Assembly (NCBI GenBank): GCA_900318775.1
Contig: ONLY01000016.1
Span: forward strand, 1 to 64,000
Direction: 5' to 3'
DNA length: 64,000 nucleotides
Origin: an uncultured Prevotellaceae bacterium
GTDB taxonomy: Bacteria > Bacteroidota > Bacteroidia > Bacteroidales > Bacteroidaceae
The notes beneath the pieces were generated by a model, which searched no databases, was not told the origin of the DNA, and worked only from the letters and a program-made list of their open reading frames with translations. Below are positions 57,429 to 64,000 of the stretch, one piece after another. The stretch's first letter is position 1; every line of letters starts with the position of its first letter. Made by a program: the position numbers and the translations under genes.

Positions 57429-57526
57429 AGCCTCAAAACCGACGTCGTCGATGTCGGTCAGTCGATGTCGTCGATGTCGGTTAACCGATGTCGTCGACAT
57501 CGGTTTTAGTGTAGTGGAAGGAGGCT
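57429..57526. repeat. CGATGTCG-based direct and inverted repeat
   Basis: TCGTCGATGTCGGT occurs as a direct repeat at 57445-57458 and 57468-57481 (23-bp period), followed by a perfect palindrome CCGATGTCGTCGACATCGG (57485-57503). AAAACCGA / TCGGTTTT and outer AGCCTC / GAGGCT arms can close the whole into a large hairpin. It may end the phosphatase transcript or be a protein-binding array. The remaining 57197-57598 shows only the CGAAAA repeat. Confidence 0.75.
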
Positions 57527-57665: not shown

Positions 57666-58571
57666 ATGCAAAAGGCGGGACTCTTTCAGCAATACATGTG
57701 GCTGCTACAAACCATCTATCAGGCAAAAGGAATCTCATTCCGTGACATTAACAAGCGTTGGACAAGAAATGCCAAGCTGAGTGGTGGAGTTGAAATGCAT
57801 CGAAACACCTTCAATAGGCATAAACAAGCCATAGAAGAAATCTTCGACATCAACATCGTTTGTGATAAAGCCAATGAATTCAAATACTATATTGAAGACT
57901 CCAAGAATCTAAAAGACGATTCTATTCTGAGTTGGCTGCTCTCCTCCATGACCGTGCATAGTGCTGTTCAAAATAGTGCCAACTTGCAAAACAGGATATT
58001 GTTGGAGAACATTCCTTCCGGACTTAAATTCTTGCAAACGATACTGGACGCCATGAATGCCAATTTATGCATATCGTTTACTTATTGTAAGTATGGCGAA
58101 CCAGAGGGGAAACGACACGAAAAGGCTGAGCCATATTGCCTAAAACTCTACAAACAACGATGGTATTTGTTGGTACGCATAGAGGATAATTTTCGCTTTT
58201 TCTCTCTTGACAGGATAGAATCGTTGGAAATACTCTCTGAGACGTTTCAGATGAACAAAGATTTTGATGCTGAGGAATTCCTCCGGCACAATTTTGGCGT
58301 TTTTCTTCCTGAACAATCCCATCCGCAGAAGGTGGTGCTCCGTGCTTTTAAATACATGAAATACTATTTGCGAGACCTTCCATTCCATCATTCTCAAAAG
58401 GAAATAGGGCATGGGCCGGATTATGCAGACTTTTCCTATTATCTTTATCCTACTAATGACTTTCTGGGTCAAATCCTTCGCTATGGTGATGTGCTCAAAG
58501 TACTAGAACCTCAATCGTTACAAGACAAAATGAAAGAGACAATCGATAAAATGCAGAAGAATTACGAATGA
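57666..58571 (+). CDS. WYL-domain transcriptional regulator next to cas12a
   Basis: The N-terminal 90 residues contain a helix-turn-helix-like region (VEMHRNTFNRHKQAIEEIF). The WYL domain at about residues 135-195 has a literal W166-Y167-L168 (QRWYLLVR) followed by FFSLDRIESLEIL, and a C-terminal WCX-type extension. WYL proteins bind DNA and are thought to sense nucleic acid-like ligands; some control CRISPR loci (for example in cyanobacterial and type VI-D systems). It ends 90 bp before cas12a. A perfect inverted repeat in that gap is a candidate target. Length 301 aa. Confidence 0.85.
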   Translation: MQKAGLFQQYMWLLQTIYQAKGISFRDINKRWTRNAKLSGGVEMHRNTFNRHKQAIEEIFDINIVCDKANEFKYYIEDSKNLKDDSILSWLLSSMTVHSAVQNSANLQNRILLENIPSGLKFLQTILDAMNANLCISFTYCKYGEPEGKRHEKAEPYCLKLYKQRWYLLVRIEDNFRFFSLDRIESLEILSETFQMNKDFDAEEFLRHNFGVFLPEQSHPQKVVLRAFKYMKYYLRDLPFHHSQKEIGHGPDYADFSYYLYPTNDFLGQILRYGDVLKVLEPQSLQDKMKETIDKMQKNYE

Positions 58572-58660: not shown

Positions 58661-61600
58661 ATGGAAAACCTAAATCAATTTGTGGGAATGTATCCCGTTC
58701 AGAAAACTATACGTTTTGAATTGCTTCCAGTTGGGAAAACAATAGAATGGATAAAGAAAGGCGGAATCATTGAAGAAGATGAACAAAAAGCCTTAGATTA
58801 TCCAATTGTGAAAAAGTTGATTGATGAATACCACAAAGTGTGCATTCGCGAATCATTGAAGAGAGAGGCTTTTGGCAATGCGCCTATTGACTGGGAGCCT
58901 TTGTGCGATGCTTTGATGGAATATCACAAGACCAAAAGTGAAGAAGCAAAAAAGAAACTGGAAGAGGAACAAACCATTGCACGGAAAAAGATTGGGAAGG
59001 CACTAACTGCCTTTAAGCATTTTGGTGAATTGACGGCAGCCACTCCTAAAGACCTTATCAAGTCGATTTTGCCCGACTTTCAGTATGATAAGGCTCTTGA
59101 CTCATTCAATAGTTTTGCTACTTATTTTCAGGGTTTCCAAGAAAACAGGAAAAACATCTATAGTACTGAAGCCATCAGCACAGGTGTTCCCTATCGTTTG
59201 GTGCATGACAATTTCCCCAAATTCTTGACAGATATTGAAGTCTATGAAACCATCAAGGAAAATTGCCCACAAGTGATAGAGCAGGCTTCGGATGAGTTAC
59301 AGCCCTTCTTGGAGGGTGTTATGCTGGATGATGTGTTCAGTCTCTCTTTCTATAATTCTCTACTGACACAAGATGGTATTGATTTCTTCAATCTCGTCAT
59401 TGGTGGTGTGTCCGAAGAAGGCAAACAGAAATATCGTGGCATCAACGAGTTTGCCAACCTTTACCGCCAACAGCATCCAGACTTTGTTGGTAAGAAAAAG
59501 TCTGTTACCATGATTCCGCTATTCAAGCAAATTCTTTCTGATAGAGAGACCCTTTCTTTCATCCCGCAGGAAATAAAGGATGACGATATGCTGGTCAAGA
59601 CCATAGAGGATTTCAACACCCATATATCCAATTATGAAAGAGAGGGACAGCCCATCAACATCATCGCAGAATTAGTCAATCTGCTTAAACAACTTCCCAC
59701 TTATGATGCTGACGGCATCTATATTTCACAGAAGCATATGACAGATGTCTCTCAAAAGATGTATGGGAATTGGGGCACAATTAACGAACGATTGCATGAA
59801 CAGGCTGTTTCACAATTTGGCGATGAGACAAAAACCAAGAACAAGAAAAAGATTGATGCTTATTTGTCAAAGGATGCATACAGCCTTCAAGAGATGCAAA
59901 TAGATGGGAAAAACCTATTAGACACTTATTTCAAGGAGATTGCTCAATGTATCTATGTGGCAGATGGTTATTGGCGACAAGTACAAGAATGGGCAAACAC
60001 ATCAACAGACAAACAGCGCTTCTTAAACAATCAAGAAGGGACGGAGATTGTGAAGAGGTATCTTGATTCCATCATGGATGCATTTCATCAGTTCTCTATT
60101 TTCGATGTGTCGGGCGAACATGAGGTAGATGCCAATTTCTATAATGAATACATTCCTTTGTACAAAGAATTGGAAAGCATCATACCTCTATATAACAAGG
60201 TGCGCAACTATCTGACGAAGAAGCCGTCGGACATCAAAAAGTTCAAACTCAACTTTGAAGCACCCACACTTGCCAACGGATGGGATCAAAACAAGGAACG
60301 CGACAATAAGGCGATTCTGCTCTTCAAGGATGGTCTTTCATATCTGGGTGTGATGAATGCCAAGAATCTCCCCGACCTAAATGTAAACAAGCATGCAAGT
60401 GGAGAATGCTACACGAAGATGATATACAAATTGCTGCCTGGTCCAAACAAGATGTTACCGAAAGTGTTTTTCTCAAAGAAGGGTATAGACACTTTTGCAC
60501 CTTCTGCCCACATCTTGAAACTCTACAATGATGGCACGTTCAAGAAAGGTCCATCCTTCAATCTTGTGCATCTGCATGAACTGATAGACTTTTACAAGGA
60601 TGGCATCAACCGTCATCCCGATTGGAGCAAGTTTGGCTTCGAGTTTGCCCCAACCGAATCATACGAGGACATCAGCGCATTCTACAACGACATCTCTAAA
60701 CAAGCCTACAAGGTACGTTTCACGGAAATTCCTGCTGAACAAGTGGATGAATGGGTCAATAATGGTCAGTTATACCTGTTCCAATTATACAATAAGGACT
60801 ATGCGGAAGGTGCTCATGGTAAGAAGAATCTGCACACGTTGTATTGGGAAAGCCTTTTCACCGATGCCAACATGAAAGACCTTGTGCTGAAACTGAATGG
60901 AGAGGCAGAACTTTTCTATCGCCCACAAAGCATCATGAAACCTGTTGCTCACAAAGTTGGGACAAAAATGTTGAATAGACGAGATAAATCAGGTATGCCC
61001 ATACCCGATGCCATCTATCGTAATCTGTATCAATACTTCAACGGAAAGAAAGCAGAGAATGAACTATCAGATGCGGAAAGAATGTATTTAGATAATGTCA
61101 TTGTCAAGGATGTGAAACATGAAATAACCAAAGACAGAAGGTTCACAAAACCTGAGTTCTTCTTCCATGTTCCTATCACGTTCAATGTCAATGCAGATGG
61201 AAACGAATTCATCAACGACCAAGTGATGGAATACCTGAAAGACAATCCAGACGTGAATATCATTGGTATTGACCGAGGCGAACGGCATCTTATCTACCTC
61301 ACTCTCATCAATCAACGAGGGGAAATACTGAAACAAAAGACTTTCAATACCGTCAATCAGTTCAATTATCACGAGAAACTGACACAAAGAGAAAAAGAAC
61401 GTGATGAGGCACGGAAAAGTTGGTCAAGTGTCGGAAAGATAAAAGACCTGAAAGAAGGTTTCCTGTCTGCTGTAATTCACGAAATCGCCACTATGATGGT
61501 AGAGAACAATGCAATAGTTGTGCTGGAGGACTTAAACTTTGGCTTCAAACGTGGGCGATTCAAGGTGGAACGGCAGGTGTATCAGAAGTTTGAAAAGATG

Positions 61601-62425
61601 CTCATTGATAAACTGAACTACCTCTGTTTCAAGGATTGTAAGTCAGATGAACCAGGTGGCATTCTTCGAGGCTATCAGATGGCGCAGAAGTTCACCAGTT
61701 TCCAACGATTGGGCAAACAAAGCGGATTCCTGTTCTACATCCCTGCTGCCTACACCTCAAAGATTGACCCTGTGACCGGATTTGTCAATCATTTCAACTT
61801 GCAAGACATCACCAATGCAGAAAAACGCAAGGACTTTTTCTTGAAGATGGATCGCATAGAAATGAGGAATGGGCATATAGAGTTTGAGTTTGACTATCGC
61901 CAGTTCAAAACTTTCCAGACCGATTATCAGAATCGATGGACAGTCAGCACATACGGAAAACGTATTGTGATGAGCATAGACAAGAATGGTTACAAGCAAA
62001 TGCAAGACTTTTACCCAACGGAAGAAATCAAGAAGGCTTTCAGTCAGATTGGTGTCACGCTTCAAGAAGGTGCAGACATCAAGGCTCTCATTGCCGATAT
62101 AGACAACCCTTCTCTTTTCAGTACATTGTTTTATGCGTTCAAGGTCACCTTGCAAATGCGCAACAGCAATTCTCAGACAGAAGAAGATTACATCCTCTCT
62201 CCTGTTGCAAAAAATGGCAGCCATTTCTGTAGCATAGAAGAAGCAAACAAGGGCATTGATGTGCATGGAAACTGGGTGTCAAAACTTCCAGTTGATGCAG
62301 ATGCTAATGGTGCATATCATATCGCGTTGAAGGGATTGTATTTGCTCCAGCATCCTGACACGAAGAAGATTGAGCATGCGGAATGGCTAAAATATATGGT
62401 GGAAAAGCCTTACCTCAACAATTAA
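58661..62425 (+). CDS. cas12a: CRISPR type V-A effector nuclease Cas12a
   Basis: This RNA-guided nuclease processes its own crRNA and cuts DNA next to a T-rich PAM. The 1254-aa length lies within the range of known Cas12a. The N-terminus MYPVQKTIRFELLPVGKT is typical. RuvC motifs are D871 (IGIDRGERHL), E956 (VVLEDLNFGFKRGR) and D1214 (DADANGAYHIA); R1167 (LQMRNSN) matches the Nuc-domain arginine. The crRNA-processing region has H764 (PVAHKVGTKM). GPNKMLPKVFFSKKG is the PAM-side motif. All key residues are present, so it should be active. The gene looks more A/T-rich than the preceding chromosome. The cas4 start overlaps its stop. Confidence 0.97.
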   Translation: MENLNQFVGMYPVQKTIRFELLPVGKTIEWIKKGGIIEEDEQKALDYPIVKKLIDEYHKVCIRESLKREAFGNAPIDWEPLCDALMEYHKTKSEEAKKKLEEEQTIARKKIGKALTAFKHFGELTAATPKDLIKSILPDFQYDKALDSFNSFATYFQGFQENRKNIYSTEAISTGVPYRLVHDNFPKFLTDIEVYETIKENCPQVIEQASDELQPFLEGVMLDDVFSLSFYNSLLTQDGIDFFNLVIGGVSEEGKQKYRGINEFANLYRQQHPDFVGKKKSVTMIPLFKQILSDRETLSFIPQEIKDDDMLVKTIEDFNTHISNYEREGQPINIIAELVNLLKQLPTYDADGIYISQKHMTDVSQKMYGNWGTINERLHEQAVSQFGDETKTKNKKKIDAYLSKDAYSLQEMQIDGKNLLDTYFKEIAQCIYVADGYWRQVQEWANTSTDKQRFLNNQEGTEIVKRYLDSIMDAFHQFSIFDVSGEHEVDANFYNEYIPLYKELESIIPLYNKVRNYLTKKPSDIKKFKLNFEAPTLANGWDQNKERDNKAILLFKDGLSYLGVMNAKNLPDLNVNKHASGECYTKMIYKLLPGPNKMLPKVFFSKKGIDTFAPSAHILKLYNDGTFKKGPSFNLVHLHELIDFYKDGINRHPDWSKFGFEFAPTESYEDISAFYNDISKQAYKVRFTEIPAEQVDEWVNNGQLYLFQLYNKDYAEGAHGKKNLHTLYWESLFTDANMKDLVLKLNGEAELFYRPQSIMKPVAHKVGTKMLNRRDKSGMPIPDAIYRNLYQYFNGKKAENELSDAERMYLDNVIVKDVKHEITKDRRFTKPEFFFHVPITFNVNADGNEFINDQVMEYLKDNPDVNIIGIDRGERHLIYLTLINQRGEILKQKTFNTVNQFNYHEKLTQREKERDEARKSWSSVGKIKDLKEGFLSAVIHEIATMMVENNAIVVLEDLNFGFKRGRFKVERQVYQKFEKMLIDKLNYLCFKDCKSDEPGGILRGYQMAQKFTSFQRLGKQSGFLFYIPAAYTSKIDPVTGFVNHFNLQDITNAEKRKDFFLKMDRIEMRNGHIEFEFDYRQFKTFQTDYQNRWTVSTYGKRIVMSIDKNGYKQMQDFYPTEEIKKAFSQIGVTLQEGADIKALIADIDNPSLFSTLFYAFKVTLQMRNSNSQTEEDYILSPVAKNGSHFCSIEEANKGIDVHGNWVSKLPVDADANGAYHIALKGLYLLQHPDTKKIEHAEWLKYMVEKPYLNN

Positions 62426-62550
62426 TGGAGAACTACATCTCCATATCAACTCTGAATGATACAATCTTTTGTCCGTATTCCATATACCTGCACAATGTGT
62501 ATATGGAATCGGACGAAGGATTGTATCATGCCACACCACAGACAAGGGGA
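62425..62550 (+). pseudogene. cas4: cas4 remnant (5' end only)
   Basis: An ATG at 62425 overlaps the cas12a stop. About 42 codons read as a Cas4 N-terminus: MENYISISTLND then FCPYSIYLHNVYM and YHATPQTRG. After QTRG the sequence leaves the Cas4 family and the frame ends at a TAG at 62584-62586. The rest of Cas4 (RecB-like catalytic and Fe-S cysteine parts, about 160 residues) is missing. It is the left end of a deletion joint with cas1. Confidence 0.8.
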
Positions 62551-62710
62551 ATATCGTCTAAAGAGAGAAAAGAACAAAGATTATAGTAAAGTTTTTTTTG
62601 ACGTGCTGGTGCCTTATAAAACCGAGGTGTTCAAATATATCCAGACGTATTACCGATGCTTCATGAATCAGAAAGACATCCGTTTATACCCCATATTCAA
62701 CTATGCATGA
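62548..62710 (+). pseudogene. cas1: cas1 remnant (3' end only)
   Basis: In a different frame from the cas4 remnant, the last 52 or so codons read EYRLKREKNKDYSKVFFD, LVPYKTEVFKYIQ and YYRCFMNQK, resembling the C-terminus of type V-A Cas1. The stop TGA overlaps the cas2 ATG (ATGA), as expected for an original cas1-cas2 junction. The catalytic part of Cas1 (about 85% of the protein) is absent. The joint with cas4 lies near 62545-62553. Confidence 0.75.
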
Positions 62711-62979
62711 TTATTATAAGTTATGACATAAAAGACGATAAACTTAGAACGAAGTTCGCCAAGATGCTTCGTTCTAATGGTGCTATTCGTTTACAGTTCT
62801 CCGTTTATGAGGTGAATAACACTCAACGCATCATTGACAATATAAAGGTGAATATCGTTGAGAAGTTTTCCAAACTCTTTACGGGCGCTGATAGCGTAAT
62901 GATATTTGATGCTCCTAATGCTAAGGTCTTGAAATACGGGAATGCCATTCATCGAGATCGGGACGTAGTATATTTCTAA
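62707..62979 (+). CDS. cas2: CRISPR-associated protein Cas2
   Basis: This is the 90-aa structural partner of Cas1 in spacer acquisition. MIIISYDIKDDKLRTKFAKM with D7 at the ferredoxin-like active site, and VNNTQRIIDNIK, are typical. The reading frame is intact. Its only known partner, Cas1, is reduced to a remnant just upstream, so it is probably without function here unless Cas1 is supplied from elsewhere. Confidence 0.93.
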   Translation: MIIISYDIKDDKLRTKFAKMLRSNGAIRLQFSVYEVNNTQRIIDNIKVNIVEKFSKLFTGADSVMIFDAPNAKVLKYGNAIHRDRDVVYF

Positions 62980-63140
62980 GCAAAACTCAGTCTCTACATA
63001 AGCAAACAAAAAATACAACTTGTTTTATACTAATAGTTTACCTATTTACTCTCATAAGAGGGGGGGCAAAGATATCCCGTATAAAAGTTTCATATTTATT
63101 TGGTTTTTAAAATAAAAACTCCGACCTTTGTAGTCGTTGG
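62980..63140 (+). promoter_or_regulatory. CRISPR leader with array promoter
   Basis: The 161-bp AT-rich leader contains TTTG (63099-63102), 20 bp, GACCTTTG (63123-63130), placing a transcript start about 63137, just before the first repeat at 63141. The -7 box has G instead of T at its first base. A TATCTTTG on the minus strand (63074-63067) might be a weak antisense promoter; it lacks a good -33 partner. Confidence 0.65.
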
Positions 63141-64000
63141 GTCTAGAACCCAATTGTAATTTCTACTATTGTAGATCATGATGTTGATTTCGTTAGTTAG
63201 AAGAAGTCTAGAACCCAATTGTAATTTCTACTATTGTAGATGTGACGAAGCGGCCTTGGCCTCGCGCTTGTCTAGAACCCAATTGTAATTTCTACTATTG
63301 TAGATTACTATGTTACGACTAAAAGAGATTAAGGTCTAGAACCCAATTGTAATTTCTACTATTGTAGATATGACGATTGCGTGGGCAATACTCCTCTGTC
63401 TAGAACCCAATTGTAATTTCTACTATTGTAGATTACATTACCACATTTTTGAATTGCTTGGGTCTAGAACCCAATTGTAATTTCTACTATTGTAGATCCA
63501 GACTCAGCCACTAACGTAACCATCATTGTCTAGAACCCAATTGTAATTTCTACTATTGTAGATATGATTGATTTAGATTTTTGTGTTTTGAGTCTAGAAC
63601 CCAATTGTAATTTCTACTATTGTAGATCAAAGTTTGTCATAACATTTATTTTTGAGAGTCTAGAACCCAATTGTAATTTCTACTATTGTAGATATCAGAT
63701 TAAGGCCCAACTCAGGCTTGAGTCTAGAACCCAATTGTAATTTCTACTATTGTAGATAAGCATGACCCCAATGCCGACAGTTGGGGTCTAGAACCCAATT
63801 GTAATTTCTACTATTGTAGATTGGTCATATATTATTGCCGTTGTAATCAGTCTAGAACCCAATTGTAATTTCTACTATTGTAGATAGGTGCAAGTGCGCA
63901 AGGAGTGGTTCGACGTCTAGAACCCAATTGTAATTTCTACTATTGTAGATATGCATGGTCGCAACTTCCGCCAGCTGGGTCTAGAACCCAATTGTAATTT
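63141..64000 (+). CRISPR. Type V-A CRISPR array (at least 14 repeats)
   Basis: The 36-bp repeat starts GTCTAGAACCCAATTG and ends TAATTTCTACTATTGTAGAT; the latter holds the Cas12a crRNA stem TCTAC-TATT-GTAGA. Repeats begin at 63141, 63206, 63270, 63334, 63398, 63462, 63528, 63592, 63658, 63722, 63786, 63850, 63915 and 63979; the last has only 22 nt before the window ends. All complete copies look identical. Thirteen spacers are 28-30 bp (nine or more of 28). The strand matches cas12a. No duplicate spacer was noticed. Targets cannot be identified without a search. Confidence 0.99.

Follow-up and report, generated by a model that had tools for sequence, protein, structure and literature searches.

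An eroded type V-A CRISPR locus in a Prevotellaceae bacterium and the conserved hairpin within its cas4 remnant

What is left of a type V-A clustered regularly interspaced short palindromic repeats (CRISPR) locus when its spacer-acquisition genes collapse, and does the surviving piece of cas4 carry anything beyond protein code? Both questions are raised by a 64,000-nucleotide stretch from an uncultured Prevotellaceae bacterium (assembly GCA_900318775.1, contig ONLY01000016.1, positions 1 to 64,000; hereafter the window), in which cas12a is followed by fragments of cas4 and cas1, by cas2 and by a CRISPR array (Table 1). The surviving cas4 start is a conserved hairpin under synonymous constraint. 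We favor, with moderate confidence, a reading in which the window holds an eroded V-A locus, one of a number of separate erosions, and in which the conserved stem-loop at the cas4 start functions at the mRNA level, where cas12a gives way to the acquisition genes.

Only ~280 bp separate cas12a from cas2. The frame beginning at 62425 matches cas4_PREFRAN (TIGR04328) over profile positions 1–41 of 178 (NCBIfam hmmscan, E 8e-16, 62437–62559), and the frame 62456–62710 matches cas1_PREFRAN (TIGR04329) over positions 263–317 of 317 (E 3.5e-18, 62540–62704); the two ends lie in different frames, which bears out the initial annotation, where cas4 and cas1 were read as reduced to end fragments. Relative to L046, the closest intact comparator available (genome G004, same genus), the window retains Cas4 residues 1–48 and Cas1 residues 269–320 of 323, and the cas4 remnant is 90% identical to L046 Cas4 over 41 aa. 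In nucleotide alignments to intact loci, the cas4 side stops at ~62543–62551 and the cas1 side starts at ~62538–62567, and the joint first placed near 62545–62553 is correct within the error of these alignments. A single deletion of about 1.3 kb had been proposed; the deletion stands, and its measured size is ~1.25 kb. As read from the sequence, the acquisition module is removed by this internal deletion, with an orphan Cas2 left behind. At the joint, a ACAAGGGG-like stretch fits cas4 as well as cas1 when read by eye, and because both sides overlap in it, the deletion may have been mediated by a short repeat that they share.

Several separate erosions of the acquisition module have taken place in Bacteroidales, where V-A loci often end this way, and the collapse in the window is one of them. 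Searches for Cas12a gave hits in 5 of 45 genomes from the genus, in 25 of 399 from the family, in 17 of 398 from a related genus, 14 of them over the cut-off, and in 17 of 393 from the order, with 16 over the cut-off; the four sets overlap. Fifty Cas12a-bearing Bacteroidales genomes, including that of the window, were examined by tblastn with several queries and by reading of the sequence; G544, G602, G748 and G936 (below the cut-off) and G1033 (contig edge) were left out. All three genes, cas4, cas1 and cas2, are at or near full length in 21 of the 50, among them L048 and L196, whose Cas4 is divided between two frames, and L193, where 60 of 90 Cas2 residues are matched. In twelve loci, here called stubs, cas4 is missing beyond its start and cas1 is partly or wholly gone, as is cas2 in some of them (the window, L039, L041, L042, L047, L058, L182, L185, L186, L187, L204 and L205). 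Neither cas1 nor cas4 is matched in 12 others (G160 with L037/L038, L044, L060, L061, L188–L192, L194, L195 and L200), although L191 retains five cas4 codons by eye, L191 and L194 retain part of cas2, and divergent cas genes may be missed in L060, L061 and L200. The cas4 gene of L183 is interrupted after codon 75, ~230 nt past the cas12a stop, by ~1.15 kb of inserted DNA; L203 has 27 cas4 codons, displaced by 873 nt; L202 is degraded; and L055 and L206 run into a contig end.

The points at which the sequence resumes differ among these loci. The window and L047 both resume at Cas1 residue 269, with cas4-side ends ~25–45 nt apart; elsewhere the sequence resumes at Cas1 130 (L182), Cas1 295 (L187), Cas2 8 (L204) and Cas2 63 (L186). 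Some of the 12 empty loci probably reflect a single event, since the repeats of L188 and L189 are nearly the same by eye. When 11 stubs were compared with 55 other loci, neither fold energy (P 0.12) nor protein identity (P 0.58) differed; the erosions look recent because the stubs are no more decayed than other loci. The same comparison lends no support to selective retention of the hairpin in stubs while the protein decays. In L052 and L057, Cas12a is broken over two frames while cas4, cas1 and cas2 are full, so erosion can strike the effector first.

The hairpin, an inverted repeat at 62456–62529 that is absent from the initial annotation, lies within the cas4 remnant. The segment 62440–62545 folds at −45.4 kcal/mol, whereas its shuffled versions average −18.5 and none of 200 reaches so low a value (z −8.7); a similar hairpin is found at 19 of 20 other cas4 starts that were folded, the exception, L039, being cut inside the hairpin. 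Because the Cas4 residues at the hairpin are conserved, a codon-resampling null that keeps both the protein and the local codon usage was used. Under this null, z lies between −2.2 and −7.3 in 15 of 15 family loci, and none of 500 samples is as low in 12 of them. Across 79 loci, z falls below −2 in 52, below −3 in 46 and above −1 in 21; this set comprises 80 genome-contig loci minus L137, which has no cas4 start, and within it L064 equals L065 in hairpin sequence and L130 is itself eroded and the same DNA as L186. A scan of z from the last 1.5 kb of cas12a through cas2, covering 14 of the 21 full-module loci, has its minimum at the cas4 start in 12 (exceptions L040 and L059), with a mean z of ~−3 there and most other bins within ~0.7 of zero. 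The pairing goes beyond what protein and codon usage impose, as is expected of a structured element. A weaker excess of structure is seen at the cas1 start, ~540–700 nt past the cas12a stop (mean z ~−1 over 14 intact loci), with individual values of −5.2 in L043, −4.5 in L059 and −3.8 in L184.

The distribution of the hairpin was followed with a model, R1, built from an alignment, A2, of 53 rows; L065 (identical to L064) and the hairpin-less L131, L132 and L133 were left out of A2, and because hairpin-less rows are missing, A2 and the analyses built on it lean towards the hairpin. R1 matches 11 of the 12 stubs at 41.6–91.2 bits, again with L039 as the exception; stub L186 was in the training set, as L130. 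A single place is matched in the window's genome, both strands having been searched, and 16 of 301 family genomes are matched under strict filters that can lose weak matches, each at its own Cas12a locus. One place in the window's genome and none away from Cas12a loci in the 301 family genomes speak against a dispersed repeat. In a tree of 76 Cas4 proteins (L130 and L140, both short, and one identical row left out), one 22-row sister clade, mostly of VYMGGDE-type Cas4, holds 14 of the 20 rows whose z exceeds −1, and the hairpin label (z ≤ −2, 49 rows) needs 11 changes against 22.5 in shuffles. Outside this clade the hairpin is strong mainly at close spacing: where the conserved cas4 Cys codon lies within 70 nt of the cas12a stop, 45 of 49 loci have z below −3, but none of the 5 more widely spaced loci does (P 4e-5; L079 and L115, which have no usable distance, and the duplicate L065 dropped). 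No tightly spaced locus of the sister clade passes z −3, and the hairpin element is therefore not universal.

Codon choice at paired positions favors base pairing, although the covariation is limited. Outside the sister clade (56 distinct sequences), the Tyr codon of CPYS and the Glu codon facing it combine at their third positions as U–A 13 times, C–G 17 times, U–G four times and C–A never (n = 34 with Glu; Fisher 5e-6, relatedness not corrected), and the Ile codon is ATA in 52 of the 56 compared with 4 of 22 sequences inside the clade. Pairing is also kept with other residues, such as ENT for MET in L075 and L077 and ATG facing CCA in L098. In A2, 91.7% of 1007 cells pair, compared with 25–64% when the partners are slid; double-change cells number 22 against 6.3 in shuffles (0 of 500), in 3 of 19 pairs only and with relatedness uncorrected; and RNAalifold with RIBOSUM scoring returns the expected hairpin at −31.1 kcal/mol.

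How might such an element work? Stem-loops in mRNA can set expression between neighboring operon genes. The stem-loop described here overlaps the cas4 coding sequence, 30–105 nt past the cas12a stop, and in intact operons it would most likely act as part of the mRNA, at the point where cas12a meets the acquisition genes. There it could protect the 3′ end of the cas12a mRNA, and/or RNase cleavage, pausing or termination at the stem-loop could keep expression of cas4–cas1–cas2 low; in an eroded locus it would be no more than a stable structure in the 3′ region of cas12a. An mRNA boundary element fits because the hairpin occurs at one place per genome, is under synonymous constraint and is strong mainly where the genes abut. 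The RNA strand is most likely the working form, and the role outlined here is a proposal. A more specific version, that in Bacteroidales V-A loci the stem-loop sets cas12a against cas4–cas1–cas2 and outlives the deleted acquisition genes by serving the cas12a transcript, is put forward tentatively.

Several results weigh against a conserved mRNA element. Among the five loci with wide spacing, three are close Fibrobacter relatives; in the sister clade, none of 9 loci with tight and none of 9 with wide spacing passes z −3 (four loci have no measured spacing), L123 being at −2.9; and 13 of 26 eroded loci are not matched by R1 (L039 and the 12 that have no cas4 start), while 2 of the 26, L202 and L203, have weak matches. 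Because half of the eroded loci lack a match, the hairpin is not essential for keeping cas12a. The double changes in A2 are confined to 3 of 19 pairs, which is reached by 27 of 500 shuffles; further pair types are no higher than in shuffles; default RNAalifold on A2 returns no consensus pairs; and G–U and A–C cells stand at 60 to 33 over 18 pairs, which does not cleanly separate RNA from DNA.

This last point bears on the main rival to the mRNA element, namely that the hairpin does its work as a DNA palindrome: a hotspot for replication slippage or cruciform cleavage, kept alike by hairpin-templated repair, with deletions starting beside it. Left breakpoints (approximate, and counted from the cas12a stop) do lie near the 3′ side of the stem at +81 (L205), +100 (L187), +108 (L041), +110 (L185) and +120–126 (window), and at one codon the window has ACA where 53 of 53 A2 rows have TTY or TAY, a substitution that lengthens the stem as template-switch correction would. 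However, the clustering was noticed post hoc, and other breakpoints fall at ~+16 by eye (L191), ~+55 (L039), +147 (L042), +150–168 (L047), +150 or beyond (L204), ~+223 (L058), +293 (L182) and +367 (L186); moreover, codon choice in the 56 sequences favors pairing, with wobble and a shifting one-base bulge allowed. We therefore regard a DNA role as unlikely, if worth keeping in view, and retain the mRNA element as the preferred reading.

What the locus can still do depends on its intact parts. It has ...AATTTCTAC-loop-GTAGAT repeats beside cas genes and a full-length Cas12a effector, as in type V-A; of the acquisition genes cas4, cas1 and cas2, only cas2 is whole. Cas12a carries the Pfam domains RuvC_1, NUC, REC1, REC2 and PI, and its translation contains IGIDRGER, VVLEDLNFGF, MRNSN and DADANGAY, which we take to be the RuvC/NUC catalytic motifs. 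Cas2 is 92% identical to Cas2 of L046, and the array, which ends ~800 bp short of the contig end, comprises 14 identical repeats and 13 spacers of 29–31 nt each. The earlier description, in which Cas12a keeps its key residues, Cas2 is intact and the repeats look identical, agrees with the whole profile matches and the repeat count. Its further proposal, that acquisition is lost while interference may persist, holds in its first part as a probability, no other Cas1 having been found; interference may continue, as the intact Cas12a and array suggest. The window would thus hold a probable interference-only locus with Cas12a and a fixed array. With the Francisella novicida V-A system in E. coli, only Cas1 and Cas2 are reported to be essential for acquisition (PMC9419969), and full-site integration needs both (PMC13034035); since both proteins are reported as essential, loss of acquisition is expected.

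Acquisition would persist if a second CRISPR system, missing from the assembly, provided Cas1 (and Cas4) in trans. Just past the V-A array lies a two-repeat array with a different type of repeat, and the genome is 90.95% complete. Nevertheless, Pfam profiles revealed no other Cas1 in this genome, and tblastn with the close Cas1 of L046 returned only the remnant (62543–62698); the Cas1 negative is meaningful because the Pfam model detects the intact L046 Cas1 at 8e-53. A TIGR04328 search of the genome likewise recovered the remnant as the only Cas4-family match; a PF01930 negative for Cas4 was discarded as void, since that model missed the intact Cas4 of L046. No Cas9-type match was found in the genome, in a search without a positive control, as none of 14 control genomes passed the cut-off. 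Supply in trans, which the initial annotation had allowed for, thus finds no support in the genome and is very improbable.

Slightly less probable still is assembly collapse, by which the missing segment would be an artifact and the strain would possess intact cas4–cas1–cas2. This is a draft genome in 41 contigs, but the joint has no direct repeat of at least 20 bases, and related collapses, with breakpoints of their own, are present elsewhere, one of them on a 1.1 Mb contig in another genome (L182). Finally, that the hairpin is a mere by-product of the conserved Cas4 sequence, without meaning, is hardly credible: the residues FCPYSIYLHNVYMETDE do partly force complementary codons and the synonymous-null mean itself folds at ~−9 to −21 kcal/mol, yet 46 of 79 loci have z below −3 under a null that keeps protein and codon usage, ATA predominates outside but not inside the sister clade, and pairing survives the exchange of MET for ENT.

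CRISPR loci without adaptation genes are a known general phenomenon, and the window resembles them in combining an effector and an array without cas1; unlike such loci in general, it has relatives across which the stages of erosion can be lined up. It is like type V-A systems (cas12a–cas4–cas1–cas2–array, PREFRAN Cas4/Cas1) in gene order, Cas12a, Cas2, repeat type and the two gene ends, and differs from the norm in that cas4 and cas1 are end fragments, which should render the acquisition module non-functional. The hairpin, for its part, is stable and sits at a gene boundary like other operon-boundary stem-loops, at one place per genome and strong mainly where the genes abut; in contrast to these, it lies inside the downstream coding sequence. 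The V-A locus of F. novicida U112 is described with a natural lesion at the cas4 N-terminus (PMC13034035, PMC9419969), and an altered Cas4 N-terminus is also mentioned for a V-B host, Alicyclobacillus acidoterrestris (PMC9419969). U112 has a damaged cas4 start, like the window, but its Cas1 and Cas2 were reportedly cloned and active, whereas in the window cas1 is deleted too. Most Cas12a3/Cas12a4 loci have cas1, cas2 and cas4, according to PMC12851939.

Within the part of the literature searched, we found no survey of adaptation-gene loss for V-A in Bacteroidales and no description of the recurrent Bacteroidales series or of the conserved cas4 hairpin. Adaptation-gene loss as such is a known kind of event. 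Cas12a loci are usually described as an effector with acquisition genes, and the relatives considered here show acquisition being stripped by deletion. A deletion series that keeps effector and array makes the cost of acquisition and the lifetime of a frozen array testable, and one concrete candidate for the means by which these operons balance interference and acquisition is the stem-loop where cas12a and cas4 meet.

Table 1. Features of the eroded V-A locus and its surroundings (window coordinates).
Feature	Position	Strand	Basis and remarks
WYL/WCX-domain regulator-like gene	57666..58571	+	Directly 5′ of cas12a; Pfam WYL E 1.2e-12, WCX 5e-8
cas12a	58661..62425	+	1254 aa, full length; TIGR04330 1257 bits, profile 2–1287 of 1288
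cas4 5′ remnant, codons 1–42	62425..62550	+	Out of frame with following sequence; TIGR04328
Near-perfect 74-nt hairpin in cas4 remnant	62456..62529	+	Inverted repeat; model R1 match 62458–62523, 82 bits
Deletion joint	62538..62567	+	Nucleotide alignments to intact loci; sequences at joint
cas1 3′ remnant, from ~residue 263–269 to end	62540..62710	+	TIGR04329; tblastn of L046 Cas1
cas2	62707..62979	+	90 aa, intact; TIGR01573 E 1.7e-11, Pfam CRISPR_Cas2 2e-12
V-A CRISPR array	63141..64000, on to 64014 in contig	+	Repeat search

Searches for the hairpin or its gene elsewhere were negative or nearly so. Rfam gave no hit above the gathering cut-off, the best being mir-1 at 26.9 bits against 45.6, and the microRNA-precursor look-alikes on both strands are dismissed as sub-threshold chance hits. 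No confirmed V-A Cas4 relative was found in viral contigs; phage and plasmid collections gave no DNA match and phages no protein match, and a plasmid protein search returned only five distant Cas4 genes. A search confined to the window, with phages and the rest of the genome not searched, found no match of more than 15 bases to the 13 spacers elsewhere.

Directly past the V-A array (contig ~64044–64165; L006:7045–7166) lie two 46-nt repeats, 98% identical, separated by a 30-nt spacer, a pattern with no second occurrence in the rest of the genome. We liken this repeat to the type II-C repeats of Bacteroidota. The pair is probably a second eroded CRISPR array, read as eroded because neither a Cas9-type gene nor a second Cas1 was found in the genome. 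On the other side of the locus, a gene like the WYL/WCX-domain regulator also precedes cas12a in 4 of 50 other loci, namely L047 (56% identity), L051 (40%), L046 (30%) and L048 (29%); 25 of the compared loci reach no more than ~500 nt upstream, where a missing gene means little. L047, the best of these matches, shows a collapse similar to that of the window. Upstream of the regulator-like gene are three tandem 23-nt copies (CGATGTCGTCGATGTCGG-like; 100, 83 and 70% alike) at 57440–57508.

A GCAAACCTNAGTCTCTACAT-like motif, directly 3′ of cas2 in the window (62980–62999), was seen by eye at the same place in several loci. It persists beside the partly deleted cas2 of L185, L186 and L191, and a similar one is present in the cas2-less L044; it is a possible candidate for a leader element. 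In L200, a strong GAAGCAAAGC...GCTTTGCTTC hairpin stands directly past cas12a, beside an open reading frame that occupies the place of cas4 and presumably resembles a repetitive extragenic palindrome (REP)-associated transposase.

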